DNA of 42,446 bases from the NCBI GenBank assembly GCA_902805535.1, contig CADCTN010000094.1, forward strand, positions 1 through 42,446. Reading direction: 5' to 3'. Numbering within the stretch: the first letter of the stretch is position 1; each line of letters opens with the position of its first letter. The stretch is from an uncultured Blastococcus sp. Its GTDB lineage: Bacteria > Actinomycetota > Actinomycetes > Mycobacteriales > Geodermatophilaceae. The notes under the pieces are model-generated. The model searched no databases. It had not been told where the DNA came from and was given only the letters and a program-made list of their open reading frames with translations. The translations under genes and the position numbers were made by a program. Shown one piece after another: positions 8,042 to 30,500 of the stretch.

Positions 8042-8203
8042 ATGCCGTTCGACGACACCGCCACGCCGCGCGTGGCTGGAGCGCACCGACGCGACACCCC
8101 CACTCCCCCACGCGGCGGAGGCCCGGAGTTCCGGGGGGAGCGGGGCGATGACCCGACGCGTGACCTGAGAGTCATCGGCCACCCGAGCGCGCCGGTTGCC
8201 TGA
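8042..8203 (+). CDS. Possible 53-residue leader ORF overlapping lyase-like paralog 2
   Basis: An ATG at 8042 follows a strong ggaggt site at 8030-8035. The frame encodes 53 residues (MPFDDTATPRVAGAHRRD...) and stops at 8203, 8 nt inside the TTG start of the next gene. The product is basic and proline-rich and matches no family I know. Its value may lie in translational coupling to the TTG-started lyase-like gene, which lacks a good ribosome binding site of its own. It could equally be a chance frame in a long leader. Confidence 0.3.
   Translation: MPFDDTATPRVAGAHRRDTPTPPRGGGPEFRGERGDDPTRDLRVIGHPSAPVA
8147..8176 (+). promoter_or_regulatory. Inverted repeat just upstream of TTG start
   Basis: The arms gatgac (8147-8152) and gtcatc (8171-8176) are perfectly complementary across 18 nt, ending 19 nt before TTG 8196. 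This could be an operator or an mRNA hairpin affecting initiation. Confidence 0.25.
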
Positions 8204-9548
8204 CCAGCGCGGCCTCTCCGGTTCACGCCGTCCCCGACCGGGACGCGTCGCCCGGCTCTGCGTCGCGCTCGCCGCGGTGTGCGCGATCACCGCCGTCCTG
8301 ATCGGCGCCACGAGCGCCACGAACGCCACGAACGCCGCGGCGTCGGCCGACGGTGCGGGCCGGACCGGAGCCGACGTCGTCCCGGTGGTCGCCCTCGACC
8401 GCTCAGACCGGGTCGCCGGCGGCATCCTCCTGTCGCGCGACGAGTTGATGGCACTGCCGACCTCGGGCCCTGGGTGGGAGGCGATCATGGCGCGGGTCGA
8501 GGACCCCTACGGCGGGTCGTACGTCCTCGGGGAGCGGGACGACGCGAACAAGGACGTGCTGGCTCACGCTCTTGCCGGTGCCCGCCTGGACGACGCCGCG
8601 CACAAGACCTTCGTCCGCGACAAGGTCGAGCAGGTCATGACCGAGCCACGCAACACCGAGGACCTGCTGGCCACGCTCCGCCAGCTGCAGACCTACATCA
8701 TCAGCGCCGACCTGATCGACCTGGCGTCGTACGACCCCGGGCTGGACGGCCGGTTCCGCACGTGGCTGGCCGACGAGATCCGGTTCGACTACGAGGGGGG
8801 CGGAGGTGGCGGGTCGGTCATCTCCAACCACAACAGGAAACCCAACAACTACGGCACGCACGCGGGGGCGACCCGGGTCGCCGCGGCGCTGTACCTGGGT
8901 GACGAGGAGGAGCTCCAGGCCGCTCGCGACATCTGGTACGGCTGGGCCACCGGCGACCCGGACTACTCGCACCCGACCCGGAGGTGGACGGGCACCGACT
9001 GGCAGTGCGATCCCGACCGCCCCGCGGGCATCAACGCCGCCGGCTGCACCCGTGACGGCAACAGCATCGACGGGATCCTTCCCGAGGATCAGGAGCGCTG
9101 CGGCGAGTACTCGTGGCCGCCCTGCGAGACCAACTACATCCATGGCGCCACCGACGGCATGACGTTGGCGTTCTGGATGCTCGAACGGTACGGGGAGGAC
9201 CCGTGGGCATGGGGGGATCAGGCGGCACTGCGGCAGATGGAGTGGAAGTACGCGAACGACCAGCCGCCCTACGACGGCTTCCGCTGGCAGATCCCCGTCA
9301 TCGAGGCCGCCTACGGCGTCGACTTCCCCGGGAACGCACCCCAGGCGACGTCGACGAACTTCGGCTTCGCCGACTGGTGGGCGCAGCGCGCCGGGGCTCC
9401 CGCGCCGGAGAGCCGCTCGGACAGCGCCCCTCCCCCCGACCCCCCGGCCACCTCCGGGCCAGGGCTCTGGCTCGTCGCGGTCATCGTCGTCACCGGCGTG
9501 CTGCTGCTGAGCCTGGCGATCCTGGTCGTCCGGCGTTCGAGGCGCTGA
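8196..9548 (+). CDS. Membrane-anchored alginate-lyase-like protein (paralog 2)
   Basis: This 450-residue protein is a close paralog of the upstream gene over its catalytic-type domain, with long identical stretches such as LATLRQLQTY and TSTNFGFADWWAQ. It has the same KPNNYGTHAG motif (N217-N218-Y219) and a matching DGILPEDQERCG. It differs at both ends. The N-terminus has a signal peptide (LCVALAAVCAITAVLIGATS) and almost no linker. The C-terminus adds a proline-rich spacer and a transmembrane helix (LVAVIVVTGVLLLSLAIL) ending in RRSRR, so it should be tethered outside the membrane. The TTG start was chosen because it gives a complete signal peptide; it overlaps the small ORF before it. The pair suggests one free or N-anchored and one C-anchored polymer-processing enzyme. 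Confidence 0.6.
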   Translation: MPDQRGLSGSRRPRPGRVARLCVALAAVCAITAVLIGATSATNATNAAASADGAGRTGADVVPVVALDRSDRVAGGILLSRDELMALPTSGPGWEAIMARVEDPYGGSYVLGERDDANKDVLAHALAGARLDDAAHKTFVRDKVEQVMTEPRNTEDLLATLRQLQTYIISADLIDLASYDPGLDGRFRTWLADEIRFDYEGGGGGGSVISNHNRKPNNYGTHAGATRVAAALYLGDEEELQAARDIWYGWATGDPDYSHPTRRWTGTDWQCDPDRPAGINAAGCTRDGNSIDGILPEDQERCGEYSWPPCETNYIHGATDGMTLAFWMLERYGEDPWAWGDQAALRQMEWKYANDQPPYDGFRWQIPVIEAAYGVDFPGNAPQATSTNFGFADWWAQRAGAPAPESRSDSAPPPDPPATSGPGLWLVAVIVVTGVLLLSLAILVVRRSRR

Positions 9549-9565
9549 GGAGCCGCGGTCCTCAG
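9545..9565. terminator. Bidirectional terminator between convergent genes
   Basis: A perfect 7-bp inverted repeat ctgagga (9545-9551) / tcctcag (9559-9565) with a 7-nt loop spans the 13-nt gap and includes both stop codons, so one hairpin serves the plus-strand lyase-like gene and the minus-strand ATP-grasp gene. Confidence 0.55.
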
Positions 9566-10818
9566 CCGGACCGCTGCGCCCGGAGAGCCGTCCGGCCCTC
9601 CCGGATCCGCCCCGCCGACCGCGCCGTGAGCCTGCCCAGCGCCTTGCGCGTCGACTGCAGCAGCTCGTGGATGAACGGCGCCGGATCCGACCACGAGAGC
9701 ACGGCGTGGGTCTTCGGCCCGCGCACGGAGCGGAGCCACTCCCTCGGCGTCAGCTCACCGCGTCTGAGCCAGTAGAGCGCAGACTGCATGTCCCGCCGAT
9801 CGTCGATCCACTTCGCCCCGACGTAGCGCTGCTCCCGGGCAGAGGGCAGCGGCAGCCCCACCATGTCGCAGTAGGCGGTGTACAGCAGTTCGACGCCACC
9901 GCCCTCCGCGATGGCCGATCGGCCGGTCGGCCGGCCGATGTTCGGCTCGACGATCAGGTGCCGGCCGGTTCGCGCATGCTGCTTCATCTCGACGTACCCC
10001 AGGCCCCGGTAGCCGAGCCCGGCGAAGAGGCGCACCGTCTCATCGAGGACGACGTCGTTCCGGCACTCCTCACCGAGGCTGCTGGTCCCGGTGTGCGGCG
10101 GCCATTGACGCAGCTTCCGCGCGACGAACGTGGCCCGCGGGCGCGAGGCCTCGTCGAAGTAGACGTTGCACGAGAAGAGGGCATCCACTCCGCCGTCGAT
10201 CCACTCCTGGGCGATGAACCGCTCCGACCACGGGGCCACCCGGTCGTAGACGGCCAGCAGTTCCTCGCCGCTCCTCAGCTGGAACGCCCTCTCCTTGGTG
10301 TGGGACTGCCAGGTCGCGGACTTCATCGGCGGCTTGAGCACCGCGGGGTAGCTCAACGTCCGTGCCGCGTGCTCGGCGTCGCCGCGGTTCTCGATGATCA
10401 CCGTGGCCGGGACGGGCAGACCGTTCGCCTGCGCATGACGCAGGAAGGCGACCTTGTCCATGAGCATCTCGAGCACGGCGTGGTCGGGGAGTGCGATGTG
10501 GAACCAGGTAGAGAGCCGGCCCCGATGCCCGGAGATCAACAGGACGGTCAGATCCGTGCACGGGATGAGGGCCGCCCGCTCGTCGAGCAGGGGCCCGAGG
10601 CGAAGGAGCGCGTCGATGAAGTCCTCGCTGCCGAGATCGGCCTCGACGATCTGCCGGCACGCGCGGGTCCTCGACGCGTAGTGCCGCCGGTCGTTGGTCA
10701 GCCCGATGACCGGCACACCACGCGCCGCAAGGATCCGTGCGGTCTGCAGACCGGTGATCGTGTCCAGACCGATGACGACGGCCGCCGGCCCGGTCGCCTC
10801 CCGCGCCTCCACCCCCAT
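9562..10818 (-). CDS. ATP-grasp carboxylate-amine ligase-like protein
   Basis: This 418-residue protein has an N-terminal pre-ATP-grasp fold (VIGLDTITGLQTARILAARG), then ATP-grasp features: DKVAFLRHAQANGLPVP, the lysine strand YPAVLKPP, the hinge region IAQEWIDGG, and the metal-binding C-terminal part GYVEMKQ...IVEPNIGRPTG. Such enzymes activate a carboxylate with ATP and join it to an amine or similar group. It is the last gene of a four-gene operon with the PEP-mutase-like gene. It may ligate an amino acid or a phosphonate carboxylate to a sugar or amine acceptor. ATG 10818 was chosen; a TTG at 10834 overlapping the upstream stop is an alternative that would add five residues. Confidence 0.8.
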   Translation of the reverse strand: MGVEAREATGPAAVVIGLDTITGLQTARILAARGVPVIGLTNDRRHYASRTRACRQIVEADLGSEDFIDALLRLGPLLDERAALIPCTDLTVLLISGHRGRLSTWFHIALPDHAVLEMLMDKVAFLRHAQANGLPVPATVIIENRGDAEHAARTLSYPAVLKPPMKSATWQSHTKERAFQLRSGEELLAVYDRVAPWSERFIAQEWIDGGVDALFSCNVYFDEASRPRATFVARKLRQWPPHTGTSSLGEECRNDVVLDETVRLFAGLGYRGLGYVEMKQHARTGRHLIVEPNIGRPTGRSAIAEGGGVELLYTAYCDMVGLPLPSAREQRYVGAKWIDDRRDMQSALYWLRRGELTPREWLRSVRGPKTHAVLSWSDPAPFIHELLQSTRKALGRLTARSAGRIREGRTALRAQRSG

Positions 10819-10832
10819 GGCCGAACCGGAGA

Positions 10833-11729
10833 TCAACCTCCGGACTCCTCGAGCGCGATCGTCTCCTTGGTCTTGACGAGCTCGAAGATGTGGTCGACGG
10901 CCGCTATGTGCGGATCGACGGCGGCCGCCTTGCGCTCGGACCGGAGGATCCCCAGCGTGTCCTCCATGGCCTGCACCGCGGCTCGCATCGGGTGGTTGGC
11001 GAGGATCACCATCTGGAAGCCCTTCTCGTAGAGCTCCTGGTCGGTGTAGTCCGGGAAGAGTGTCGGCACCGCGACCAGCGGGGTCTTGCCCAGCCCTCCC
11101 CAGGCACCGAGAAACCCTTCGATCTCGCGCAGCGACTTGTCCTTCGAGTGGATCAGGATGGCGTCGGCGCCGGCCTCGACGTAGGCGTCGGCCCGCTCGC
11201 ATGCCGCCTCGACGCCATGGCCGGCGATCAGCGCCTCCACGCGGGCGACGAGGACGAACGAGTCGGTCTCCTGCGCCTGCTTGCCCGCCCGGATCCGGCG
11301 AGCCTGCTCGTCGGCGGGGATCAGCTCTCTCCTGGAGTCCCCGGTGTAGAGGCTGTTCCGCTTCGGGAAGAGGTTGTCCTCGATGCAGATGCCGGCGATG
11401 CCGCTCCGCTCGAACTCGACGACGGTTCGCACGACGTTCGTCAGGCCGCCGAACCCGTTGTCGCAGTCGGCGAGGACCGGCAGGTCGGTCGCGCCGCCGA
11501 TCCGGACCGCCGCCGCCAGCGTCTCGGTCATCGTCGTCAGGTTCAGATCCGGCAGCGCGTGGGTCATGGTGGCGACGCCGAAGCCGCTCACCCACACCGC
11601 GTCGAAGCCGTAGGCCTCGATGAGCTGTGAGCTCATGGCGTCGTGCGCGCCCACCGCGACGTACGGCTTGTCGGCCGCGAGCCCCGCCCGCATCGCCGCG
11701 CGCTTCCTCTCAGCACGGTTCACTCGCAT
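10833..11729 (-). CDS. Phosphoenolpyruvate mutase-like enzyme (isocitrate lyase superfamily)
   Basis: This 298-residue protein aligns along its length with PEP mutases, which rearrange PEP to phosphonopyruvate, the first step of nearly all phosphonate biosynthesis. Metal/substrate residues are in DCDNGFGG (88-95). The gating loop is EDNLFPKRNSLYTG (117-130); the PEP-mutase signature is EDKx5NS, so K is replaced by N119, while the Lys123, Asn125 and Leu127 equivalents of the characterised enzymes are kept. VARVEALIAG and ADAILIHSKDK are also mutase-like. Related alternatives are phosphonopyruvate hydrolase or another superfamily lyase. ATG 11729 follows a gaggga site. It sits between a 2-hydroxyacid dehydrogenase and an ATP-grasp gene on one strand. 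Confidence 0.75.
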   Translation of the reverse strand: MRVNRAERKRAAMRAGLAADKPYVAVGAHDAMSSQLIEAYGFDAVWVSGFGVATMTHALPDLNLTTMTETLAAAVRIGGATDLPVLADCDNGFGGLTNVVRTVVEFERSGIAGICIEDNLFPKRNSLYTGDSRRELIPADEQARRIRAGKQAQETDSFVLVARVEALIAGHGVEAACERADAYVEAGADAILIHSKDKSLREIEGFLGAWGGLGKTPLVAVPTLFPDYTDQELYEKGFQMVILANHPMRAAVQAMEDTLGILRSERKAAAVDPHIAAVDHIFELVKTKETIALEESGG

Positions 11730-11780
11730 CAGGTCCCTCTTCCGCTCGTTGTCGTTCCTGGAGATCGAGGCCGGACGGCC

Positions 11781-12755
11781 TCAGGTCGGGGGCGCATCCA
11801 CGGCCTCCTCCGGCTCCAGCTCCTGGTCGAGCGAGCCGTGCTCGTACGACCGGAGCAACTCCACGACCCGCTCGCCGATGAGTCGCTGGGAGTCCCAGGC
11901 CATGGCCCCGATGTGCGGGGTGAGCACCACGTTCGGCAGTGCTCCGAGACGTGGGACGACGCCTTCGCCCTCGCGTTCGTGGACGTCCAGCGCCGCCCCG
12001 AGCAGACTCTCCCCGCCGGTGAGCGCGGCGTGCAGCGCGTCCTCGTCGACGACGCCACCACGGGCGACGTTGATCAGGAACGAACCCGGCTTCATGCGCG
12101 CGAGCACGCCCGCGTCCACGATGTGGTGCGTGTGCTCGTCGAGCGGGAGGTGCAGGCACAGGAAGTCCGACTCGGTGACCACCGTGTCGAAGTCGGTGAG
12201 CGTGACGCCGCGACCGGCCAGGGCGCTCGCCACCGCCGGGGACGGTCTGTCGACGCACCCGAGGGCCCGCATCCCCCATGCCGCCCCCATCTCACCGACG
12301 CGACTGCCGATGCGACCGGCCCCGATGATGCCGAGGGTCTTGCCGGCGAGGAGCGGCCCACCGAGCGTGGCCTTCGGCCAGTGGCCTTCGCGGAGCAGGC
12401 GGTCGGCGAGGGTCACCTTCCGGGCCAGGCTCAGCAGCAGCGCAAAGGTCAGCTCGGCGACCGGCTGCGCCGACGAGCCGGGCACCCGCACCACCTGGAC
12501 GCCCCGAGCGAGGGCGTGCGCGACGTCGATGTTGTCCAGGCCCGAGCCGGCTCGCAACACGAGAGCCAGGTTCGGGGCGGAGTCGAGAACCCGCGCGGAG
12601 AGCGTGACACCGCTACGGAAGATCACCGCCTCCCGGTCGGCCATCAGCGTGACGAGGTCGGCCTCCGGCGCGTTGAACGCCCGCACCACGTCGTGCTCCC
12701 TCTCGAGCGCCTCGATCGCCGCCGGGTCGATGGAACTGGCGAGCAGAACCTTCAC
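11781..12755 (-). CDS. D-isomer-specific 2-hydroxyacid dehydrogenase
   Basis: This 324-residue NAD(P)-dependent dehydrogenase resembles 3-phosphoglycerate dehydrogenase without the regulatory domains. The Rossmann motif GAGRIG is at 145-150. The catalytic Arg (NVARGG, R232), acid (DVHE, near E260) and His (TPHIGA, H281) are present, and the substrate loop LRAGSGLDNID is kept. It interconverts a 2-keto acid and a D-2-hydroxy acid. Its GTG start overlaps the stop of the kinase-like gene by 4 nt, and a 51-nt gap separates it from the PEP-mutase-like gene. Context suggests phosphonopyruvate as a possible substrate, reduced to phosphonolactate; ordinary 3-phosphoglycerate or another keto acid remains possible. 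Confidence 0.85.
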   Translation of the reverse strand: MKVLLASSIDPAAIEALEREHDVVRAFNAPEADLVTLMADREAVIFRSGVTLSARVLDSAPNLALVLRAGSGLDNIDVAHALARGVQVVRVPGSSAQPVAELTFALLLSLARKVTLADRLLREGHWPKATLGGPLLAGKTLGIIGAGRIGSRVGEMGAAWGMRALGCVDRPSPAVASALAGRGVTLTDFDTVVTESDFLCLHLPLDEHTHHIVDAGVLARMKPGSFLINVARGGVVDEDALHAALTGGESLLGAALDVHEREGEGVVPRLGALPNVVLTPHIGAMAWDSQRLIGERVVELLRSYEHGSLDQELEPEEAVDAPPT

Positions 12756-13435
12756 GTGCGCCTCTTCTCGAAGTACTCGGTGATGACCGTCGCCACCTCG
12801 CGGGCGACCACGTCAAGGGGGCGATCGACGTCGATGACGACGGAGTCGGGGAGCAGCGCCGCCAGCTGCAGGTACTGCGATCTCCGATGCTCGAGCCATT
12901 CGGGGCTGGCTTCGTGCTTGCGGTCGAAGAGGACCTGCCCCGGCGCATCCAGGCAGATCACCAGGTCCGGCTTGGGATAGAGGTGCTTCAGGAGGAAGCC
13001 GTGCACGCGGGCGCTGACCGACCGCGGGCCTTCTCCGGCGACGTCGAAGTGGTAGTAGTCCGCGTAGAAGTGCCGATCGAAGACCACGATCGCCCCGCGC
13101 CTGCGGTGGTACTGGGCCACGACCTGCCGGAACCACTCCTCCGCGACCCACATCACGAGGCGGGCAGCGCGCGTGCCGCCCCGGACGACGTGCCGGACCG
13201 GGCCGCCGGCGCTCGACACGGGCGGCCCGGAGGGGGCCGCCATGTCAGGACGCCGACCCCGCGCGGACTTGACCGCGAGCGCCAGTCTCGTGGTGGGGAG
13301 CATCATGCTGCTCGCCTCGAGGTTGACGCCCATGTAGATGCGCTTCACCGGCGCCGGCATCGGCTCCCGTTCGAGCATCTCGGTGATCGTGCTCTTGCCG
13401 GCGCCGTCCGGACCGATGATCGCGACGCTGATCAC
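12752..13435 (-). CDS. Thymidylate kinase-like P-loop kinase
   Basis: This 227-residue protein opens directly with a P-loop, GPDGAGKST (8-16), and carries the DRHFYADYYHFD segment typical of thymidylate kinase-like proteins, followed by LVICLDAPGQVLFDRK. Residues ~50-85 are a loop rich in Pro/Gly/Ser that true Tmk lacks. Homologs of this kind are common in polysaccharide clusters and their substrate is generally unknown, so a role in dTMP synthesis is unlikely. The GTG at 13435 was chosen because the P-loop then starts at the usual distance from the N-terminus; the frame is open further upstream but has no recognisable domain. It appears to be the first gene of the PEP-mutase operon, with a GTGA overlap to the next gene. 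Confidence 0.75.
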   Translation of the reverse strand: MISVAIIGPDGAGKSTITEMLEREPMPAPVKRIYMGVNLEASSMMLPTTRLALAVKSARGRRPDMAAPSGPPVSSAGGPVRHVVRGGTRAARLVMWVAEEWFRQVVAQYHRRRGAIVVFDRHFYADYYHFDVAGEGPRSVSARVHGFLLKHLYPKPDLVICLDAPGQVLFDRKHEASPEWLEHRRSQYLQLAALLPDSVVIDVDRPLDVVAREVATVITEYFEKRRT

Positions 13436-14143: not shown

Positions 14144-15760
14144 ATGAGCGGGCCCGGGCAGCTGCCGGCCGAGAAGGAACCACGCCCCGACGACACCGCC
14201 CCCGCGCGGGTGGCGGACGAGATCCCACCCGGCCACGGACGATCGGCCGATACGGGGGAGATGCGACGGACCCAGGTCCGGGGATCGGCCCTGCTCGTGG
14301 TCGGCCGGATCCTGACGCTGCTGATCACCACGACGACGCAGGTCATCCTCGTCCGCGCGCTGACGATGAGCGACTTCGGCGCCTTCGGCTACGCGCTGGC
14401 CATCGCCAGCACCGGCCGGCTCCTGCTCTCCCTCGGCCAGGGCAAGCTCCTCAGCCGGTTCACGGCCAAGTACGAGGAGGAGCAGGACTACGACCGCATG
14501 TTCGGCAGCATGATCCTCGCTGCCGGGACGATCGTGGTGACCAGCACGATCTCCCTCGGCGCTCTCTTCCTGCTCTCCGACGCCCTGGTCGGTTCGGCGG
14601 TGAGCGACCCCGCCACCGTCCAGGTGGTGCTGATCCTCGTGTTCCTGGCTCCGCTGGAGGCGTTCGACCAGGTCTTCGTCTCCCTGTTCGCCGCCTTCAG
14701 CAAGCCGAGCGCGATCTTCTTCCGCAAGTACCTGCTGACTCCGGGGCTGCGGTTCGTCGTCGTGCTGGCCCTGGCCCTCACCGGCTCCTCGGTCAGCTTC
14801 CTGGCGATCGGGTACGTGGCCGCGGGCGTCGTCGGGCTGGTCGTGAACGTCATGGTCTTCGTCCAGGTGCTCCGCGAGCGCGACCTGCTCCGGCACCTGC
14901 ACATCCGCCGCATCGTCCTGCCCTACCGAGCCGTCTTCTCCTTCTCCCTGCCGATGATCACCGGCGAGCTACTCACGCTGTCCCTCACCGTGGGCGGCGT
15001 CCTGATCCTCGGCGCCTACCACTCCGCTGTCGACGTCGCGGGCTACCGCGCGGTCTTCAACCCGGCACGCCTGAACACCGCGGTGCTCCACGCCTTCGTC
15101 CCGCTCTTCCTGCCGTTGGCCGCCCGGCTCTTCGTCCGTTCCGACATCGACGGGCTGCGCCGCACCTACTGGCAGACCGGGGCGTTCGTCGCGGTGCTGA
15201 CCTTCCCGATCTTCTGCCTGACCGGTCCGCTGGCCGAGGACACCACTGTCCTGCTGTTCGGCGAGGCCTACGCGGAGTCCGGGCTCGTGCTCGCACTCCT
15301 GTCGGTGGGCTACTACTTCGGCGTCGTGCTGGGGTTCAACACGTACGCGCTGCAGGTGTGCGGGCGGATCCGGTTCCTCGTCGGCGTCAACACGGTCACC
15401 GCCGTGTTCAACGTGGCGCTCAGCCTGCTGCTCGTCGAGCGGTACGCGGCGGTCGGCATCGCGGTCGCCAACCTGAGCGCTCTCGTCCTCCAGAACGTGC
15501 TGAACCAGTGGGCGCTGAGACGCGCGCTCGACACAGCGGCGATCCATCGCCGGGTCCTCTTCTGCTACGTGTCGATCCTGGGCTGCGCGATCGCGCTGTG
15601 GGTCTTCGAGGCGCTCGTCGACCCCGGACTGGTCATCGGGCTGGCCGCCGCCGCCGTCGCCTCCCTCTTCGTGCTCCTCGTGAGTCGTAACGCGATCGAG
15701 CTGGGCGACACGTTCCCCGAACTCCGCCGCGTGCCGATCGTGCGGAAGCTCGTCCGATGA
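14144..15760 (+). CDS. Wzx-type polysaccharide flippase
   Basis: This 538-residue integral membrane protein has a ~45-residue hydrophilic N-terminus, then about 14 predicted helices, starting with RGSALLVVGRILTLLITT and followed by VRALTMSDFGAFGYALAIA. That pattern, a short loop after TM1 and a Y-G or FG pair before TM2, is typical of the MATE/MVF oligosaccharide flippases. It should move the undecaprenyl-linked repeat unit across the inner membrane to the Wzy polymerase. The ATG is the only usable start in the frame; no ribosome binding site is close, so the transcript could be leaderless or the start inefficient. The GT2 gene follows after 36 nt. Confidence 0.85.
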   Translation: MSGPGQLPAEKEPRPDDTAPARVADEIPPGHGRSADTGEMRRTQVRGSALLVVGRILTLLITTTTQVILVRALTMSDFGAFGYALAIASTGRLLLSLGQGKLLSRFTAKYEEEQDYDRMFGSMILAAGTIVVTSTISLGALFLLSDALVGSAVSDPATVQVVLILVFLAPLEAFDQVFVSLFAAFSKPSAIFFRKYLLTPGLRFVVVLALALTGSSVSFLAIGYVAAGVVGLVVNVMVFVQVLRERDLLRHLHIRRIVLPYRAVFSFSLPMITGELLTLSLTVGGVLILGAYHSAVDVAGYRAVFNPARLNTAVLHAFVPLFLPLAARLFVRSDIDGLRRTYWQTGAFVAVLTFPIFCLTGPLAEDTTVLLFGEAYAESGLVLALLSVGYYFGVVLGFNTYALQVCGRIRFLVGVNTVTAVFNVALSLLLVERYAAVGIAVANLSALVLQNVLNQWALRRALDTAAIHRRVLFCYVSILGCAIALWVFEALVDPGLVIGLAAAAVASLFVLLVSRNAIELGDTFPELRRVPIVRKLVR

Positions 15761-15796: not shown

Positions 15797-16924
15797 GTGA
15801 TGCTGCCGCAGGAGGACCGAATGCCGCCCCCGCCTCACGGCGCCCTGCCTGACACCGCCCTGCCGGACAACGCCCTGCCGGACGCCGCCCTGCCTGACAC
15901 CGCCCTGCCTGACACCGCCCTGTGGGATGACGAGGTGGGGGCGGCCGGGGACCTCGTGAGCGTCATCATCCCGGCCAGGAACGAGGAGCGCGCCATCGGC
16001 GCGACGCTGGACGCCCTCCGTCGCCAGGACTACGAGAACCTGCAGATCATCGTCGTGGACGGCGGGTCCACCGACGGCACGGCCTCGGTGGTGCGGCGAC
16101 ACATGGCGGAGGACCCGCGGGTCGAGCTGGTGCCGAACCCGCGTGGGATCACACCCGTCGCCCTCAACATCGCGGTGGCGCATGCGCGCGGCCCGTGGTT
16201 GGTGCGCATGGATGCGCACTCGACGGTCGACCCGGGGTACGTCAGCGCCGCGGTGGCACGACTGCGCGAGGGACGGTGGGGTGGGGTCGGTGGACGCAAG
16301 GACGGGGCGGCCTCGTCACCGGCCGGCCGGGCGATCGCCGCAGCGCTCGGCAGCAGGTTCGGGGTCGGCGGCTCGGTCTACCACCACGGGACCACCGAGC
16401 AGGAGGTGGACCACATCCCCTTCGGGGCCTATCCCACCGAGCTCGTGCGCCGGCTGGGCGGCTGGGACGAGCGTCTCGTGACCAACCAGGACTTCGAGTT
16501 CGACTACCGACTGCGCCAGAGCGGAGCCCGGCTGCTCTTCGACCCCCGGCTCAGGATCGCCTGGCAGAGCAAGGAGTCGGTGCGGGACTTCTACCGCCAG
16601 TACCGCCGCTACGGCCGCGGCAAGGTGGACGTCGCCCTGCTGCATCCGCGGTCGCTCCGCCCCCGCCACCTCGTGCCGCCCCTTCTCGTGCCCTATCTCG
16701 CCGCTGCCGCCGCCGTCGCGGTGCGCAGACCGACAGGAGCCGCCGCGATGGTGGCCCCGTACGCCGCCGCGCTGACCGTCGCGTCCGTGCGGACCGCCCG
16801 CACGCTGGACGACCCTCGCGCCGGCATCTTCGTCCCGGCCGCATTCCTCGCCATGCACGTCGGCTGGGGCATCGGCGCCTGGTCGCGGGCGCTGGAGCTG
16901 CTCACCAGCAGGGCCGGACGGTGA
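15797..16924 (+). CDS. GT2 family glycosyltransferase, ExoA-like
   Basis: This 375-residue enzyme has a GT-A fold: SVIIPARNEERAIGATLDAL at ~54, VVDGGSTDGT, a DAH metal-binding motif in LVRMDAHSTVD, and NQDFEFDYRLRQSG as the acceptor-side motif, followed by basic helix YRRYGRGK and C-terminal membrane segments. This matches succinoglycan ExoA-type transferases, which add a sugar from a nucleotide donor to the lipid-linked repeat at the inner face of the membrane. The N-terminal ~30 residues are a low-complexity run of ALPDx pentapeptides encoded by 15-bp repeats, not part of the enzyme fold. GTG 15797 or ATG 15800 fit a gaggt site; ATG 15821 with its own ggagga is an alternative. Confidence 0.85.
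   Translation: MMLPQEDRMPPPPHGALPDTALPDNALPDAALPDTALPDTALWDDEVGAAGDLVSVIIPARNEERAIGATLDALRRQDYENLQIIVVDGGSTDGTASVVRRHMAEDPRVELVPNPRGITPVALNIAVAHARGPWLVRMDAHSTVDPGYVSAAVARLREGRWGGVGGRKDGAASSPAGRAIAAALGSRFGVGGSVYHHGTTEQEVDHIPFGAYPTELVRRLGGWDERLVTNQDFEFDYRLRQSGARLLFDPRLRIAWQSKESVRDFYRQYRRYGRGKVDVALLHPRSLRPRHLVPPLLVPYLAAAAAVAVRRPTGAAAMVAPYAAALTVASVRTARTLDDPRAGIFVPAAFLAMHVGWGIGAWSRALELLTSRAGR
15842..15916 (+). repeat. 15-bp tandem repeat encoding ALPDx
   Basis: Five in-frame copies of a gccctgccngacnnn unit lie head to tail, and a sixth partial copy follows. Units 1, 4 and 5 are identical; units 2 and 3 differ by a few bases. Each encodes Ala-Leu-Pro-Asp plus one variable residue, at the N-terminus of the GT2 protein. 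Copy number may vary by slippage. Confidence 0.9.
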
Positions 16925-18078
16925 GCTCCGGACCGGCCGCCGCGGAGCGCGCGAAGGAGGTGACCTCCCCGCACGTCGACTTCGATCTGCACGGCATCGT
17001 GGGGATCCGCCTGCTCGAGCCCCGAGCGCAGGACGTCGACACGATCACCCGCCAGATCGGCCCGCTGGCCGGCCGGCTCGACCGGGAGCCGGACATCACG
17101 GTCAGATTCGTCGACCGGCTGCCCGATCCGGGACGACTCACGTACGGGGGCTGGCCGGACTCGGCCGCCGCGGGCGACGACTTCTACCTGCTCCGCGGCA
17201 GGGAGGGGACGGCCGCCGGCACCCTCCTTCCCGTAGACACGATCGGCGAGCGCTGCGACATCGTGACCGAGCGGCGAGCCGGCCACGTCCCCCACCTGCT
17301 CGCAGTCATCAACCTGACGGCGCTCGCCAGGGGGGTCCTTCCCCTGCACGCCTCCGCCTTCAACCACCGCGGGACCGGCGTCCTCGCCACCGGCTGGGCC
17401 AAGGGCGGGAAGACCGAGACCCTGCTCGCGTTCGCCGCACGGGGCGCGCACTACGTGGGCGACGAGTGGGTCTATCTCACGCCCGACGGCAACATGCACG
17501 GCGTCCCCGAGCCGATCAGGCTCTGGCACTGGCACCTGGCGCAGCTACCGGCATTGCGCGCCGCCCTCCCCCGGAGCACGAGGGCCCGGCTCGGTGCGCT
17601 GGTGTCGATGGCCTCGTCGGCGACCGCCGCGGGGAGCGCATTGACGGGACTCCCCGCCTCGGTGCTGCGGCGCACGGCACCGGTGCTGCGTCGGCAGGCA
17701 TACGTGCAGGTCCCTCCTGCGAGACTGTTCGGGCAGGACGCGGTCGCTCTGCGCGGACACCTGGATCACGTCCTGCTCGTCGTCAGCCACGACCGGCCGG
17801 AGATCGCCATCGAGCCGGTGTCCGGGGCCGAGGTCGCCGCTCGGATGGCCGCCTCCCTGGAGGACGAGCGCAGCCCCTTCCTCCAGATGTACCGCCAGTT
17901 CCGGTTCCTGTTCCCGGAGCGCCGCGCCGTCGTCGTCGAGCAAGCCCTCGAGATCGAGCGTCGGCTGCTCGAGCAACTGCTCTCCGACCGACCGGCGCAC
18001 CTGCTCCGCCACCCGTACCCCGTCCGGCTGGACTCGCTGGTCGAACCGGTCGAGGCCGTCCTCGGGGCCCGGCCGTGA
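16921..18078 (+). CDS. HprK-like P-loop ATPase of the polysaccharide locus
   Basis: This 385-residue protein has a P-loop at 158-165 (GWAKGGKT) followed by a GDEWVY segment, the arrangement seen in HPr kinase/phosphorylase-related proteins. An N-terminal alpha/beta region (~20-140) precedes it, and a ~200-residue helical C-terminus follows. No HPr or HTH partner domain is present. Related genes recur in actinobacterial polysaccharide clusters without known function; it may phosphorylate a small molecule or a protein in assembly. The GTG start overlaps the GT2 stop (GTGA), so it is translationally coupled to the glycosyltransferase. The true substrate is unknown. Confidence 0.6.
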   Translation: MSSGPAAAERAKEVTSPHVDFDLHGIVGIRLLEPRAQDVDTITRQIGPLAGRLDREPDITVRFVDRLPDPGRLTYGGWPDSAAAGDDFYLLRGREGTAAGTLLPVDTIGERCDIVTERRAGHVPHLLAVINLTALARGVLPLHASAFNHRGTGVLATGWAKGGKTETLLAFAARGAHYVGDEWVYLTPDGNMHGVPEPIRLWHWHLAQLPALRAALPRSTRARLGALVSMASSATAAGSALTGLPASVLRRTAPVLRRQAYVQVPPARLFGQDAVALRGHLDHVLLVVSHDRPEIAIEPVSGAEVAARMAASLEDERSPFLQMYRQFRFLFPERRAVVVEQALEIERRLLEQLLSDRPAHLLRHPYPVRLDSLVEPVEAVLGARP

Positions 18079-18117
18079 CGTCCGCGAGATCCACGGGTCA
18101 CCGCGGATCAACTCGTG

Positions 18118-18152
18118 GTGCTGGCGCGCACGGCGTGCTTAGCTGCCAGCAC
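18118..18152 (+). promoter_or_regulatory. Stable stem-loop upstream of first Wzz-like gene
   Basis: A perfect 8-bp outer stem gtgctggc (18118-18125) / gccagcac (18145-18152) encloses a smaller gcac / gtgc stem. It begins 40 nt after the HprK-like stop and ends 50 nt before the ATG of the Wzz-like gene. It could terminate the upstream transcript or act as a leader hairpin controlling the co-polymerase gene. Confidence 0.45.
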
Positions 18153-18201
18153 TGTTCGACGACCGCGGGGACCGAGATATGACAGCACCGTCGAGGGGCC
18201 G

Positions 18202-19455
18202 ATGAGAGCAGCGGGTACCGATGCCGTCGGCGCGCTGCGCTGGGGCCTGCGTCGGTACCTCTGGCTGGTCCTCGCCTGCGTCCTGCTCGGGGCGGTCGTC
18301 GCGCCTCGGCTGGAAGCCAGGTACGAGACGCAGGTCGAGGCGGAGGCGCTCGTCATCGCCCAGCGACTGGACATGGAGCTGGTCGCGCTCCCGCGGTACG
18401 GCGAAGCGGTCTTCGACAACGGAGCGGTCGCCCAGGCGGTCGCGGCGAAGTTCGGCAACGCCGGCCCGGTCGAGGACATCATCCCCAACCGCGTGTCACT
18501 GGTCGCCGAGCAGGACTCGATCGTCTTCCGGGTCGTCGGGCACGACGTCGACCCGCAGATCGCCGCCGACCTCGCGAACACCGCGACCGAAGCGTTCGTC
18601 CCCGCGCTCAACGTCACCGGCGTGGGGGCAGGGGCCTTTGCGCTCCAGAGTCCCGCGACACCGCCCCCCGCGCTCGATGCCGGGCTCAGCAAGAAGCTCG
18701 CCGTCCCCGTGGGTCTCGTCTCGGGATTCATCCTCGCCCTCGCGCTCGTGTCCCTGCTCCTCATCGTCCGCCGGCCGGTGATCACGGCGGAGGACGCCGA
18801 GGACGTGACCGGTGTCCCAGCACTGGGCACGGTCAAGGTGCCCAGGACGCGACGCGGTGTGTACGCCCCGCCGGAGGACTTTGCCGGGCTGGTGCCGGTG
18901 TGCCGCCGTCTACTGCACCTGTCGACCCCCACCGTGGTCCTGGTGAGCCGGCGCCGCGAGCAGCGTGCGCGCAGGCAGCTCACGGCTGCGATGGCCAGGA
19001 TCCTGGCGCGCGTGCGGGACGTCCAGCTGATCGGCCCGACGATGCCGGAGCTGCCGGGCATCCGCTCCATCGGCACCTTCGAGCTGGACGGGATGGTGGG
19101 CGAGTTCGGGAGCACGAGAGCCGGACGCCCCACATCGAGCAGTGATCACGAGACCGGCCGGCCAGAGCTCTCACTCGTCGACAGCACCGATCCGCTCGAT
19201 CTCGTGCAGCCGCCCCGGATGACCGCCACCGTCCTCGTCGTCCGGGTGGGCATCCGCAGTGCTGCGCTGCAGGCTGCGGTCGTCGAGCACCTCGGGGGCA
19301 GCGCGGAGGCCCGGCTGGTCCTGGTCAGGTACAGGCGCTGGTCACGGTTCCGAGGGGGCTCGCGCGTGCAGCCGACCGATGACGTGGAGGCTCCCGACGG
19401 CGAGGTCCCCGACGACAAGGCCCCCGACGACAAGGTCCTCGCGGACAAGGGGTGA
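18202..19455 (+). CDS. Wzz-like polysaccharide co-polymerase with degenerate kinase domain (paralog 1)
   Basis: This 417-residue membrane protein has an N-terminal helix (YLWLVLACVLLGAVVAP), an extracytoplasmic domain, and a second helix (VGLVSGFILALALVSLLLIV), the layout of Wzz/chain-length proteins. Behind TM2 comes a region that follows the fold order of bacterial tyrosine kinases but lacks the P-loop: PTVVLVSRRREQRARR stands where the Walker A strand would be, and SLVDSTDPLD plus TVLVVRVG where the later strands would be. It probably controls chain length but cannot bind ATP in the usual way. The tail has 15-bp repeats encoding PDDK-like units. ATG 18202 follows a gagggg site. A paralog is at 27486-28697. 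Confidence 0.75.
   Translation: MRAAGTDAVGALRWGLRRYLWLVLACVLLGAVVAPRLEARYETQVEAEALVIAQRLDMELVALPRYGEAVFDNGAVAQAVAAKFGNAGPVEDIIPNRVSLVAEQDSIVFRVVGHDVDPQIAADLANTATEAFVPALNVTGVGAGAFALQSPATPPPALDAGLSKKLAVPVGLVSGFILALALVSLLLIVRRPVITAEDAEDVTGVPALGTVKVPRTRRGVYAPPEDFAGLVPVCRRLLHLSTPTVVLVSRRREQRARRQLTAAMARILARVRDVQLIGPTMPELPGIRSIGTFELDGMVGEFGSTRAGRPTSSSDHETGRPELSLVDSTDPLDLVQPPRMTATVLVVRVGIRSAALQAAVVEHLGGSAEARLVLVRYRRWSRFRGGSRVQPTDDVEAPDGEVPDDKAPDDKVLADKG
19393..19437 (+). repeat. 15-bp tandem repeat in Wzz-like C-terminal tail
   Basis: Three consecutive 15-bp units (cccgacggcgaggtc, then cccgacgacaaggcc, then cccgacgacaaggtc) encode acidic PDxxx pentapeptides at the extreme C-terminus. The unit length equals that of the repeat at 15842-15916 in the GT2 gene. 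Confidence 0.8.
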
Positions 19456-20708: not shown

Positions 20709-21794
20709 TCAACCGCGTCTGCTGCCGGCCCACCTGCGGGCGCCCCGCAGCTCGTCGGGCATCCCCGCGGCACGGCGCTGTGCGCGCCGCAGGGCATCGC
20801 TCCAGCGGATGGCGCGACGCGAACGGACCCGCACCAGGGCGGCCTCGGCCCGCTGCAGGCGCTTGGCCAGCTCGGCCGGGTTCATGTCCGGCATGATCGT
20901 CTCGTCGGCACGATCACCGAGTGCGACGGCCTGGGGCCCGCGTTGCCTGTCGGCCAGGGCTGCCCCGGTGAGCAGTCGCCGTCGGCCCACCGCACCGTGC
21001 GGGACCAGCGGGCCCAGCGGGCCGGGCCGGCTCGGGTCGTAGCCGAAGAATGCGGCGAGCGGACCGACCTGGTCGACCAGCAGCTCGAGCTCGTTCCCCT
21101 GGAGAGCCTCGGCCCAGCGGTCGGCGAGCTCCGGCGTGATGGGGTCGCGCGTACGGGTGGCGCCAGCGGAGAGCCGTGGCGCACCACGAGCTGCCTGGAC
21201 GTCGTTGTGCCGCAGCATGTCCTCCGACCATGGCTCGCCCAGCCAGTCGACCAGCTCGCGCAACGTGCCCTCCGTGTCCTGCACGAGGTCCTCGTAGCGG
21301 AGAAGGGAGAAGCGGTCCCCACCGAGTTCCAGACCGCGCTGGAGGATCTCCTTGTTCGTGCTGTCCCAGTACGTCACTGCGTCGGCGGTCGCGTAGTGGA
21401 ACTTGCGGGTCAGCGAGTGCACGACGGCGCCGGGATGACGCACGATCCCGACGAAGACGGCGTCCGGGAAGACGGTCGCCATCTGGGGGATGTGCTGGGC
21501 GTGGAACGGCGTCTTCTCCCCCCACCGCTGCTTGCCCTGGCCCACCGCATGGCGCTCGAACAGGCCGGAGTAGAACTCCCGCAGCCGGGCGTCGAACTCC
21601 TCCTCGGTCCAGCCGATCCGCTCGTACCAACCGCGCCCGTGCTTCCAGTTCGGGATCTGCTTGGTGGCCGCGAGAGCGCCCATGAAGCCGGTCTCCTCAC
21701 TGACCGCGATGTGCGGGTGCGCATCGAGGACCAGGCGGAAGAGAGTACTTCCCGACCTCATGGTGCCGACGACGAAGATCGGGCTTTCCAGCAT
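20709..21794 (-). CDS. PAPS-dependent sulfotransferase (1)
   Basis: This 361-residue protein has the sulfotransferase 5'-phosphosulfate loop VGTMRSGST (9-17) and a 3'-phosphate-binding segment VRHPGAVVHSL near residue 130, with RYEDLVQD and LGEPWS further on. It should transfer sulfate from PAPS to a hydroxyl of the polysaccharide or its lipid-linked precursor. The last ~70 residues are basic and may form a coiled tail. The ATG directly abuts the stop codon of the Wzy-like gene (TAG then ATG), so the pair is cotranscribed and sulfation is tied to polymerisation. The PAPS supply genes cysD and cysNC lie at 35.5-38.3 kb. Confidence 0.85.
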   Translation of the reverse strand: MLESPIFVVGTMRSGSTLFRLVLDAHPHIAVSEETGFMGALAATKQIPNWKHGRGWYERIGWTEEEFDARLREFYSGLFERHAVGQGKQRWGEKTPFHAQHIPQMATVFPDAVFVGIVRHPGAVVHSLTRKFHYATADAVTYWDSTNKEILQRGLELGGDRFSLLRYEDLVQDTEGTLRELVDWLGEPWSEDMLRHNDVQAARGAPRLSAGATRTRDPITPELADRWAEALQGNELELLVDQVGPLAAFFGYDPSRPGPLGPLVPHGAVGRRRLLTGAALADRQRGPQAVALGDRADETIMPDMNPAELAKRLQRAEAALVRVRSRRAIRWSDALRRAQRRAAGMPDELRGARRWAGSRRG

Positions 21795-23105
21795 CTAGCG
21801 ACCGTCCTGTCCCGCTGCCAGGGGACGACGACGCTCCGCGGGCGCATCCCGGAGACGACCCGCGCGCACGGAAGCGATCACCGTTCCTGAGACAGCTACG
21901 TAGGTGAGTACCGCCCAGAAGAACTTGAACTCGAGGTTGGAGAGGAAGAACGACGAGGCGATGATGCCGAGAATGGCGCCCATCGGTGGTCCGCGCATCG
22001 AAACCGGCAGACGGAGAGCGGTCCAGATGGCCAGACCCAGGCCGACGACCACCAGGAGGAACCCGGCGACGCCTGTCTCGATCAGGGCCAGCAGGAAGAT
22101 GTTGTGCGGTTCGTAGGCGGTTCCCCGCCGGAGCACCTTGGCTTCCGCGACCGAGGCCCGCTCCTCCGCGTAGACAGACGGGAACCCGCCCCAGCCGGCT
22201 CCGGTGAGGCAGTAGTGGCGGCATGCGTACAACCCGACCGCCCAGATCTCCGTCCGCCCCGATGTCGTGTCCTTGTTGACCTGACGTTCCCCTAGACCGC
22301 CGGGGTTCACCACCACGATGACCGCCAGGACCGCCACCGCCGCCCCCACGAGCGCCGCCTTCGCGATGCGCCGGGCCGCACTGAACAGAATGATGGACAT
22401 GAAGACCACGAGGATGGCGAGCAGCCCGCCCCGGGATCCGGTCATCAGGACACCGAGCAGCATGGCCAGCGTCACGGCGCCGTACACCACCCGCCAACGG
22501 CCCATCCCGGTCAAGGTGCGCCCGGCTGCGATCGCGGCGGGCAGCAAGAGGGACGCCGCCTGGTTGTTCGCACCGAGCAGGTCGTCGCCGAACCGGCCCG
22601 CGCCCCCGTCGAACGCCGGAAGCCCGCCGAGGAACAGCACCTGCGCCAGCCCGTACCCGACGACCAGCGCACCGCCCAGCACGATCGAATTCTCGAACAG
22701 CCGCAGCGTCTGCACGTCGAAACGGGTGAGCACCAGGGCGACGAAGAGCAGCACCAGGCTCGACAGGACCGCGAATCCCTCGACGGTGGCCGACGGCGCG
22801 ATGCTCCAGAACAACGAGAGCCCGCACAGTGCGAGGAAGGCGAGCCAGACCGGCACCTCTATCGGGAGCTGCGTGCTTCCTCGCCTGGTCGTGACGAGCT
22901 GGGCCAGCAGCCCGACTCCGAGCAGCAGCCCGAGCAATGACGACACCGAACCGAAGGGTCCCGGCCCGACGGCCAGCAGGGAACTGAACGGGATCAGCAC
23001 GGCGTAGGGCGGGAGCGCGTAGCGCAGTGGGTCTCGTAGGCATGCGACGGCGTAGGCCACCAGGAGCGGCGCGAATGCTGCCCCGAGCAGCAACTGCAGC
23101 GACAT
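21795..23105 (-). CDS. O-antigen ligase/Wzy-type polysaccharide polymerase
   Basis: This 436-residue protein has about 11-12 membrane helices and one large extracytoplasmic loop carrying SGRTEIWAVGLYACRHY, TGAGWGGFPSV and EPHNIFLLALIETG, the features of the Wzy_C/O-antigen ligase family. The MTGSRGG motif before it is also typical. It should polymerise lipid-linked repeat units, or ligate chains, on the outer face of the membrane. The ATG follows a strong aaggagggg site. It is divergent from a second sulfotransferase gene across 77 nt and is followed without gap by the first sulfotransferase. Confidence 0.85.
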   Translation of the reverse strand: MSLQLLLGAAFAPLLVAYAVACLRDPLRYALPPYAVLIPFSSLLAVGPGPFGSVSSLLGLLLGVGLLAQLVTTRRGSTQLPIEVPVWLAFLALCGLSLFWSIAPSATVEGFAVLSSLVLLFVALVLTRFDVQTLRLFENSIVLGGALVVGYGLAQVLFLGGLPAFDGGAGRFGDDLLGANNQAASLLLPAAIAAGRTLTGMGRWRVVYGAVTLAMLLGVLMTGSRGGLLAILVVFMSIILFSAARRIAKAALVGAAVAVLAVIVVVNPGGLGERQVNKDTTSGRTEIWAVGLYACRHYCLTGAGWGGFPSVYAEERASVAEAKVLRRGTAYEPHNIFLLALIETGVAGFLLVVVGLGLAIWTALRLPVSMRGPPMGAILGIIASSFFLSNLEFKFFWAVLTYVAVSGTVIASVRAGRLRDAPAERRRPLAAGQDGR

Positions 23106-23182
23106 GCCGCGCCCCTCCTTCCCCTGAGACGCGGCGATACTTGCACACCGCAGGGGCCATCGGGGGCGGTACGTTGCGCACG

Positions 23183-24184
23183 ATGAGTTCGACCAAGCTG
23201 CTCTCCATCGTCGGCCCAGGCCGCAGTGGGACCACCATCATCGCGAGCGTGCTCGGAGAGATCGACGGCGTCTGCAACGTCGGGGAGCTGCGGTGGCTCT
23301 GGGGGCGGGGAATCCTCGAGCGCCGTCCCTGCGGCTGCGGACTGCCCCCGGACGAGTGCCCCGTCTGGTCCAGGGTCGTCGGGAAGGTTCGCGAGGAGGG
23401 CAGTGAGTCGCCCGCCGAGATCGTCGCGGCGCAAGGCAAACTGGCGTCCCGCCGACAGCGGCTGCGCGTCATCCGCAGCGCGACCCGGGGCCAGGTCGAC
23501 TGGCCGGCGCTGGAACGTGTCCGCGCGGTCACCCAGCGGCTGATCCCCGCCATTGTCGACGTGACGGATGCGCGGGTGATCGTCGACAGCTCGAAGCGCG
23601 CTCACGACGCCGCTGTCCTCGCCGGTCTCGACGGTGTGGAGCACTACGTGCTGCACATCGTGCGCGACCCCTGCGCCGTCGCCTTCTCGTGGCAGCGGCG
23701 GGACAAGACGGTGCACATCGGGGACCGGACCCGGACGATGTCCACACGCCGGCTGCTACCGAGCTGCCAGCGCTGGCTCGAGAACTGCCTGAGCGCCGAG
23801 GTCCTGCGCCGACACGTACCGCCGGAACGGTGGATGTTCCTCCGCTACGAGGACTTCGCGACCGAGCCGCAGGCGGCCGTCGCCCGGCTCCTCGCCTTCC
23901 TCGGGGAGCACGGGACCCCGCCGTTCGCCGACGAACGGAACATCGTGCTCGGGGTACAGCACACGGTGGCCGGGAACCCGAACCGCTTCCGGGTCGGCAC
24001 GGTCAGGATCACCCTCGACGACGAGTGGAACCGGCGGATGCCGCGGCGACGCCGTCTCGCCGTCCGGGCCATCACGTGGCCGGGCCTGCTCCGCTACCAT
24101 TACCCGCTGACCGGCGGACTGGTCCGGCGACCGGGCCGACCCGGTCACCGAGAGGACAGCAGGGGTCTCCCGGCCACCGGCTGA
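23183..24184 (+). CDS. PAPS-dependent sulfotransferase (2)
   Basis: This 333-residue protein carries a 5'-phosphosulfate loop GPGRSGTT (11-18) and a 3'-phosphate-binding segment containing DSSKRAHD near residue 135, plus LHIVRDPCAVAFSW and RYEDFATEP. Two CxC-like clusters (RPCGCGLPPDECPVW, about 48-62) suggest a local metal or disulfide site; such a Cys-rich stretch is frequent in actinobacterial sulfotransferases of this subgroup. It differs clearly from the first sulfotransferase, so the two likely modify different positions. It is divergent from the polymerase gene and shares its 77-nt promoter region. The C-terminal ~25 residues are low-complexity. Confidence 0.82.
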   Translation: MSSTKLLSIVGPGRSGTTIIASVLGEIDGVCNVGELRWLWGRGILERRPCGCGLPPDECPVWSRVVGKVREEGSESPAEIVAAQGKLASRRQRLRVIRSATRGQVDWPALERVRAVTQRLIPAIVDVTDARVIVDSSKRAHDAAVLAGLDGVEHYVLHIVRDPCAVAFSWQRRDKTVHIGDRTRTMSTRRLLPSCQRWLENCLSAEVLRRHVPPERWMFLRYEDFATEPQAAVARLLAFLGEHGTPPFADERNIVLGVQHTVAGNPNRFRVGTVRITLDDEWNRRMPRRRRLAVRAITWPGLLRYHYPLTGGLVRRPGRPGHREDSRGLPATG

Positions 24185-30346: not shown

Positions 30347-30360
30347 CGAACGACAACGGC

Positions 30361-30370
30361 TTCCGCGGAA
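30361..30370. promoter_or_regulatory. 10-bp palindrome between the two propeller-like genes
   Basis: The perfect palindrome ttccgcggaa lies 14 nt after the stop of the first propeller-like gene and 130 nt before the next ATG. It may be an operator. The rest of the 154-nt gap shows nothing recognisable. Confidence 0.25.
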
Positions 30371-30500
30371 TCCCGCGCCTCCCGACCGCGCCGCGATGCA
30401 TTGCCGTGCCCACGGCGAGGTGCTTCTATTCCGTGCCGGCGTCGGGCGTCGGCCGGGCTGCACAGGCCCGCGCTCGGACGCGACACGCTCGGGGGCCCCG

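Follow-up and report, generated by a model that had tools for sequence, protein, structure and literature searches.

In actinobacterial phosphonoglycans, a gene of the phosphoenolpyruvate (PEP) mutase (PepM) family lies in a surface-polysaccharide setting. The valinophos/dihydroxypropylphosphonic acid (DHPPA) pathway uses a 2-hydroxyacid dehydrogenase (HADH) as driving step (PMC12871164) and an ATP-grasp ligase, VlpF (PMC12723261); such a dehydrogenase can drive PepM by turning phosphonopyruvate into phosphonolactate (PMC12871164). Phosphonoalamide-type pathways (PnaA-D; PMC11867202) combine PepM, a transaminase as driving enzyme and ATP-grasp ligation by two L-amino acid ligases. Known phosphonate ATP-grasps form amides or, in valinophos, an ester (PMC11867202; PMC12723261). 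Here a four-gene operon is described on contig CADCTN010000094.1 of an uncultured Blastococcus sp. (assembly GCA_902805535.1, 85% complete); the whole stretch of 42,446 nucleotides that was analysed is called the window. All four genes are on the minus strand (13435-9562), in the order KIN-HADH-PEPM-like-ATP-grasp:

12752..13435, minus strand: KIN, thymidylate-kinase-like P-loop protein of nucleoside monophosphate (NMP)-kinase fold; first gene, GTG start, motifs GPDGAGKS and DRHF
11781..12755, minus strand: HADH, D-2-hydroxyacid dehydrogenase, candidate phosphonopyruvate reductase (Pfam, NCBIfam, tree)
10833..11729, minus strand: PEPM-like, enzyme of the PEP mutase/isocitrate lyase superfamily in which EDN(X5)NS replaces EDK(X5)NS
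9562..10818, minus strand: ATP-grasp ligase-like protein; last gene, ATG start

There is a 4-base overlap between KIN and HADH, with gaps of 51 bases between HADH and PEPM-like and of 14 bases between PEPM-like and ATP-grasp (gene starts in the window were set by inspection). This is a new operon type, in which a motif-variant PEP-mutase-like enzyme is joined by a PepM-linked HADH, an unclassified ATP-grasp and an NMP-kinase-like protein; no description of it was found in the open-licence literature, among the matches listed. With moderate confidence, we regard it as a cassette that makes and ligates phosphonolactate and serves an adjacent sulfated envelope polysaccharide.

With the valinophos-type branch, the cassette shares a PepM-family enzyme, a 2-hydroxyacid dehydrogenase and an ATP-grasp, but it differs in its altered PepM motif, in the NMP-kinase-like gene within the operon and in its location at a sulfated polysaccharide. 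The plan of PepM, driving enzyme and ATP-grasp is also that of the phosphonoalamide-type pathways (PMC11867202), whereas the driver here is the HADH, and there is a single ATP-grasp, below Pfam cut-off, where those pathways have two L-amino acid ligases. As in the Kitasatospora fiedleri cluster (PMC12723261), ATP-grasp and cysDNCQ-like 3'-phosphoadenosine 5'-phosphosulfate (PAPS) genes occur near a PepM-family gene; in the window, however, the CysD, CysNC and inositol-monophosphatase-family genes accompany sulfotransferases and Wzx/Wzy and lie at least 22 kb away from the cassette. A surface-polysaccharide setting with a PepM-family gene is shared with the PntC cytidylyltransferase phosphonyl-tailoring loci (PMC6697681). 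Unlike these loci and the phosphonoglycans, the cassette genomes (0/7) have no phosphonopyruvate decarboxylase (Ppd) over cut-off, and neither of the nucleotidyltransferase families PF12804 and PF01467 was matched among 46 window open reading frames (ORFs) scanned against Pfam, which include some overlapping, probably wrong-frame ones; for the same two families at five relative loci (56 ORFs), the view covers the best 25 of 37 Pfam families. The comparison with Glycomyces and Stackebrandtia phosphonoglycans in an earlier reading of the window (the first-pass annotation) is therefore loose.

Cassette order is identical in eight loci, the window included, which belong to Geodermatophilaceae, one Nocardioidaceae and one Chloroflexi assembly. 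The first-pass annotation had described a compact, single-strand operon of four genes and had proposed a comparison across related genomes; its coordinates and order were right, and KIN-HADH-PEPM-ATP-grasp is kept in all eight loci. Chance clustering of the four genes is ruled out by this conservation. A profile search of genome contigs with a three-member alignment gave at least six loci (the contig search used two peptide patterns only), all with the four genes in the same order on one strand. Hosts are Geodermatophilus telluris DSM 45421, Geodermatophilaceae URHB0062, Blastococcus DSM 46786 and Geodermatophilus LHW52908, together with a Chloroflexi isolate bin (PEPM 71%) and a Nocardioidaceae metagenome-assembled genome (PEPM 73%). 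The KIN/HADH overlap is 4 bases in five of the six loci and 1 base in the sixth. An eighth copy lies in G533, a genome of the window's own genus (PEPM 98%); the ratio of non-synonymous to synonymous substitution rates (dN/dS) between the window and this one genome was 0.24 for ATP-grasp, 0.03 for PEPM, 0.23 for HADH and 0.20 for KIN. Cassette-grade PEPM (E<1e-180) was found in 6 of 146 relatives, the window's own genome counted, four of the six being twins of named cassette loci; among the same 146, one further genome carries an EDK PepM at E 7e-82. A phylum-wide search of 396 genomes met cassette PEPM in the window's own genome only, with few candidates scored per genome (no more than 6 or 7 from a first look, as in the class-level HADH and ATP-grasp searches). 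The distribution of the cassette is patchy, and its Chloroflexi and Nocardioidaceae copies suggest transfer, binning errors being another possibility. Separately, a lone ATP-grasp relative (45-47%), broken by stops, was seen at about 9295-10389 of L087 (G379), with no other cassette gene within 20 kb.

The PEPM-like enzyme matches PF13714 (PEP_mutase) in Pfam at E 2.5e-55. Its residues were compared in an alignment of 27 rows (7 cassette, 11 EDK, 2 EDN-CT and 7 lyase-type), numbered after structure 1m1b, which we take to be the Mytilus edulis enzyme; the roles of the numbered residues are likewise presumed. In family, Mg- and substrate-site residues and the NS of the gating loop, the enzyme is like canonical PEP phosphomutase (TIGR02320; 5unc, 1m1b): D58, D85, D87, E114, K120 and R159 are common to the cassette, EDK and lyase-type groups, while W44, N122, S123, E161, H190 and S191 are common to the 7 cassette and 11 EDK rows and not to the lyase-type rows. 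The catalytic and substrate residues besides K116 (D58, D85, D87, E114, K120, N122, S123, R159 and H190) are thus kept in 7/7 cassette rows; at K192, R is present in three rows, one of the cassette group and two of the EDK group. Unlike the canonical enzyme, it has EDN for EDK and DxDN for DxDT, scores below the curated cut-off and falls in a separate clade. The cassette rows depart from all 11 EDK rows at K116 (to N) and T88 (to N), the motif reads EDNLFPKRNS in 8/8 cassette loci, which breaks the diagnostic EDKX5NS, and TIGR02320, the top of seven NCBIfam matches, reached 253.6 bits with the window protein (cut-off 319.55). EDKX5NS was required of PepM candidates in surveys (PMC12723261, PMC8931226, PMC6697681), one of which kept 1,485 of 27,716 PF13714 sequences and set 26,231 aside as presumed non-Ppm (PMC6697681). 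Since both motif and TIGR02320 cut-off fail, the enzyme would not be filed as a PepM under the field's own rule; the label 'PEP mutase' is thus a putative one, and the break in the motif and the score below cut-off had been overlooked in the first-pass annotation.

In the tree, the 7 cassette enzymes form one long-stemmed clade (100/100) beside, and not nested in, the EDK PepMs (weak backbone, 76/72); under midpoint rooting, with the same backbone values, the clade falls on the EDK side. With a cassette family profile, solved PEP mutases scored 243 and 223 bits, phosphonopyruvate hydrolase 230 bits, as high as PepM, and the best methylisocitrate lyase 157. An ordinary methylisocitrate lyase was ruled out, the window enzyme being without the CGH loop. 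The separate long-stemmed clade, the fixation of K116N and T88N within it, the score below the TIGR02320 cut-off and the score of the hydrolase would also suit an enzyme that has diverged to another reaction of the superfamily (C-C lyase or synthase, or hydrolase or decarboxylase of phosphonopyruvate or oxaloacetate type), with the ATP-grasp attaching a non-phosphonate, malate- or lactate-like 2-hydroxy acid to a sugar. We consider this unlikely, as the lyase loop is missing, N122, S123, E161 and H190 are as in EDK PepMs, the HADH shares a clade with HADHs that adjoin canonical PepMs, and none of the seven searched cassette genomes has a Ppd over cut-off. The comparison of residues suggests that the PEPM-like enzyme probably works like a PEP mutase despite its EDN motif.

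The window genome holds three other PF13714 proteins, none of which reads EDK; L003 and L004 group with the lyase-type rows, and L001 was left outside the tree. A second non-EDK group, with EDNVFPKRCT, was seen at L045 7198-10129 (G061:C15) and at L017 (G143). After the PEPM-like gene of L045 come the two halves of a split thiamine-pyrophosphate enzyme, which match the Ppd profile (E 5e-28 and 7.5e-28), and a class-V aminotransferase; apart from the non-EDK enzyme, this gene order resembles an aminoethylphosphonate pathway.

HADH matches PF02826 (E 4.7e-48) and PF00389 (E 2.4e-21) in Pfam, and R232, E262 and H281, presumably its catalytic residues, are invariant in 8 aligned rows. The closest non-cassette HADHs found, those of L039/L015 (50%) and L040/L018 (42%), both adjoin canonical EDK PepMs and come from a search confined to the flanks of PEPM matches; by BLASTP to the window HADH they scored 234 and 209 bits, and the best of 20 SerA-like rows scored 185 ('SerA-like' is a label assigned here from frame length and similarity). 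Outsiders in a first HADH tree were SerA-like only (20 of 28 fetched, 8 left out); for a second tree, 8 of those 20 were kept and 20 further HADHs were hand-picked from the order-level list. The 7 cassette HADHs and those of L039 and L040 form one clade (99/95) that excludes 28 other same-order HADHs. In a search of 121 order genomes (E<=1e-35), the L039 and L040 genomes not among them, no non-cassette HADH surpassed E 4e-56, and an unlinked member of the clade may exist elsewhere; the class-level search at E<=1e-60, too strict a threshold, recovered the window only (1/296). The top NCBIfam match of the window HADH is TIGR01327 (PGDH, phosphoglycerate dehydrogenase; E 8.6e-72), as would be expected if it were an ordinary 3-phosphoglycerate dehydrogenase (SerA) copy that supplies the polymer with serine or glycerate, with the PEPM-like enzyme belonging to unrelated metabolism. 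This match, however, is below cut-off (242.6 of 454 bits), the protein of 324 aa covers only positions 1-305 of the 525-position model, and in the second tree the window HADH belongs to the PepM-linked clade and does not fall among the 8 SerA-like rows. The HADH tree rejects a SerA copy, and we hold this explanation to be highly improbable.

Ppd (TIGR03297) was over cut-off in 0/7 cassette genomes, the eighth, G533, being outside the search; the window assembly, at its 85% completeness, gave three weak matches, the best at 29.8 bits (cut-off 312.5). That no Ppd is seen, as the first-pass annotation had it, holds for this assembly. The annotation's proposal of the HADH as an alternative driving step gains comparative support: the HADH shares a clade with PepM-adjacent HADHs, and no recognisable Ppd occurs where that clade sits. 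As a positive control, 7 EDK-PepM genomes were searched, and near-full-length Ppd was found in 4 (356, 342, 301 and 225 bits, the weakest carrying one internal stop), 2 of them over cut-off; the eighth genome of this search, G061, is an EDN-CT genome and was not counted. Ppd adjoins PepM in G065 and G192, is about 1 kb from it in G169 (one stop inside) and is on another contig in G236. The two EDK-PepM genomes with HADH beside PepM gave best Ppd matches of 46 and 39 bits. In G150, Ppd reached 25.7 bits and no such HADH lies within 1.5 kb of PepM (L014 flanks), so a rule of Ppd or HADH is not universal. The pairing of an HADH with a PepM-family gene where no Ppd is recognised, as in a valinophos-type pathway, is a genomic association.

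L039 holds PepM, HADH, a semialdehyde dehydrogenase, a phosphoglycerate kinase (PGK)-like protein, alcohol dehydrogenases and a nucleotidyltransferase-like protein (PF14907), a gene set as expected for a phosphonolactate-to-dihydroxypropylphosphonate route, and it would accordingly be of valinophos type. Unlike L039, the window has no match to a PGK-like or semialdehyde dehydrogenase family among the 46 ORFs scanned. At L040 4183-11400 (G200:C12), an EDK PepM, a divergent HADH of the cassette clade, a class-V aminotransferase and an ATP-grasp of L-amino acid ligase (LAL) type occur without a recognisable Ppd; this is possibly a further phosphonolactate-ligating cluster.

The cassette ATP-grasp matched no Pfam family at E<=1e-3 (best PF13549, 15.9 bits, cut-off 27.6), and its NCBIfam matches were weak (best E 4.4e-8). 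The motifs DK (121-122), KPP (162-164) and EPN-x-GR (291-296) are invariant. Its AlphaFold model (mean pLDDT (predicted local distance difference test) 76.3; both structure predictions were built from 7-sequence alignments) matches DdlB, PurK, CPS and RizA (best E in Foldseek 1.5e-15, TM (template modelling) score about 0.5-0.6); at E<=0.001 there were 538 PDB matches, with DdlB, PurK and CPS at the top. The predicted fold is that of carboxylate-amine ligases, which may here use the carboxylate of phosphonolactate. KIN matched Thymidylate_kin at E 3.7e-5, below cut-off in Pfam (23.9 of 27 bits) and in NCBIfam (24.6 of 83.25 bits); its P-loop and DR motif are intact and its model (mean pLDDT 70.5, 55 of 227 residues <50) has a predicted NMP-kinase fold, with thymidylate kinases as Foldseek matches (best E 2.3e-7, TM about 0.5-0.6). 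Because NMP-kinase-type enzymes phosphorylate phosphate groups, a phosphonate or a phosphonate-bearing intermediate is plausible, if speculative, as its substrate. Phosphonopeptide pathways typically use ATP-grasp ligases (PMC11867202), and L040 combines PepM, HADH and an LAL-type ATP-grasp; on this model the operon would make a free, phosphonopeptide-like small-molecule phosphonate, and its polysaccharide location would be incidental. This seems to us improbable, given that the cassette ATP-grasp is over the cut-off of no peptide-ligase family and that flippase and HprK-like homologues accompany the cassette in 6/6 long-flank loci, Chloroflexi and Nocardioidaceae included.

These two genes and others around the operon are as follows:

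14144..15760, plus strand: Wzx-like flippase, divergent neighbour; homologue near the cassette in the long-flank loci (6/6)
15797..16924, plus strand: GT2 glycosyltransferase
16960..18078, plus strand: HprK-like P-loop protein, start codon uncertain; homologue near the cassette in the long-flank loci (6/6)
18115..19455, plus strand: Wzz-like chain-length protein, by inspection, without Pfam match
20709..21794, minus strand: sulfotransferase (PF13469)
21795..23105, minus strand: Wzy-type O-antigen ligase/polymerase (PF04932)
23027..24184, plus strand: sulfotransferase (PF13469)
35498-36403, plus strand: CysD-like (PF01507)
36403-38301, plus strand: CysN-CysC-like fusion (PF00009 and PF01583)
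41282-42073: inositol-monophosphatase-family gene
6211-7707 and 8196-9548: two tandem paralogues with weak similarity to alginate lyase, slightly below cut-off, adjoining the cassette

Glycosyltransferases, a sugar-phosphate transferase, Wzz-like proteins (by inspection) and RmlD-like and dehydratase-type sugar enzymes are also present. The window is a sulfated polysaccharide locus, as the first-pass annotation had recognised for the polysaccharide; the CysD-like and CysN-CysC-like genes presumably supply PAPS for sulfation and, together with the inositol-monophosphatase-family gene, make up a cysDNCQ-like set. In L051 and L052 the HprK-like gene is on the strand of KIN and immediately precedes it, and it may be a fifth cassette component; its label derives only from the L051 orthologue (Pfam E 1.1e-5, TIGR00679 E 5.6e-7, both below cut-off), the window copy having no Pfam match. 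Both alginate-lyase-like paralogues have counterparts at the syntenic G533 locus. At 29400-33062 the window encodes a large protein that contains repeats of the bacterial Ig-like (Big_5) domain, and similar sequence is found near the cassette in L048, L049 and L051.

In the pathway that we favour, the PEPM-like enzyme would isomerise PEP to phosphonopyruvate, as its kept catalytic residues and gene partners suggest; the K116N and T88N changes are unexplained by this step. The HADH would then pull the unfavourable reaction by converting phosphonopyruvate to 3-phosphonolactate, replacing the decarboxylase, which is supported by its clade and by the missing Ppd. The ATP-grasp, from its fold and the known phosphonate ATP-grasp ligases, could activate the carboxylate as an acyl phosphate and couple phosphonolactate to a sugar or carrier at an amine or hydroxyl group. 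KIN might, speculatively, phosphorylate the phosphonate or an intermediate linked to it, perhaps as activation before transfer, and the conserved neighbourhood suggests that the product would decorate the Wzx/Wzy/Wzz polysaccharide. Comparative evidence supports the first two steps, and the phosphonate-forming step is likely; the attachment step and the role of the kinase are predictions. Of the phosphonate-decorated exopolysaccharide proposed in the first-pass annotation, the polysaccharide setting stands, and phosphonate on the polymer and the roles given to ATP-grasp and kinase are so far unsupported. Several points weigh against this pathway: the broken EDKX5NS motif and the TIGR02320 score, the position of the cassette clade beside the EDK PepMs on a weak backbone, the hydrolase score, the search for related HADHs only beside PEPM matches, an HADH sequence that does not fix the substrate, the G236 Ppd away from PepM, G150 with neither Ppd nor such an HADH, the 85% completeness of the window genome, and a polymer attachment made plausible by the neighbourhood only.

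A more far-reaching interpretation, which we put forward tentatively and regard as rather doubtful, is that the EDN clade would be an overlooked class of PEP mutase in a surface-phosphonate pathway free of decarboxylase and cytidylyltransferase, in which mutase and reductase make phosphonolactate, a new ATP-grasp family couples its carboxylate, its phosphonate is activated by an NMP-kinase-like protein and not as a cytidine monophosphate (CMP) ester, and the polysaccharide is both sulfated and phosphonylated. Motif-filtered genome mining discards enzymes like the cassette PEPM. The EDN clade would allow a direct test of what the motif lysine does, and the cassette offers a concrete candidate for a phosphonate-ligating ATP-grasp that acts on polysaccharide. 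If the EDN clade makes phosphonopyruvate, phosphonate producers have been undercounted and the Geodermatophilaceae gain a predicted surface phosphonate.

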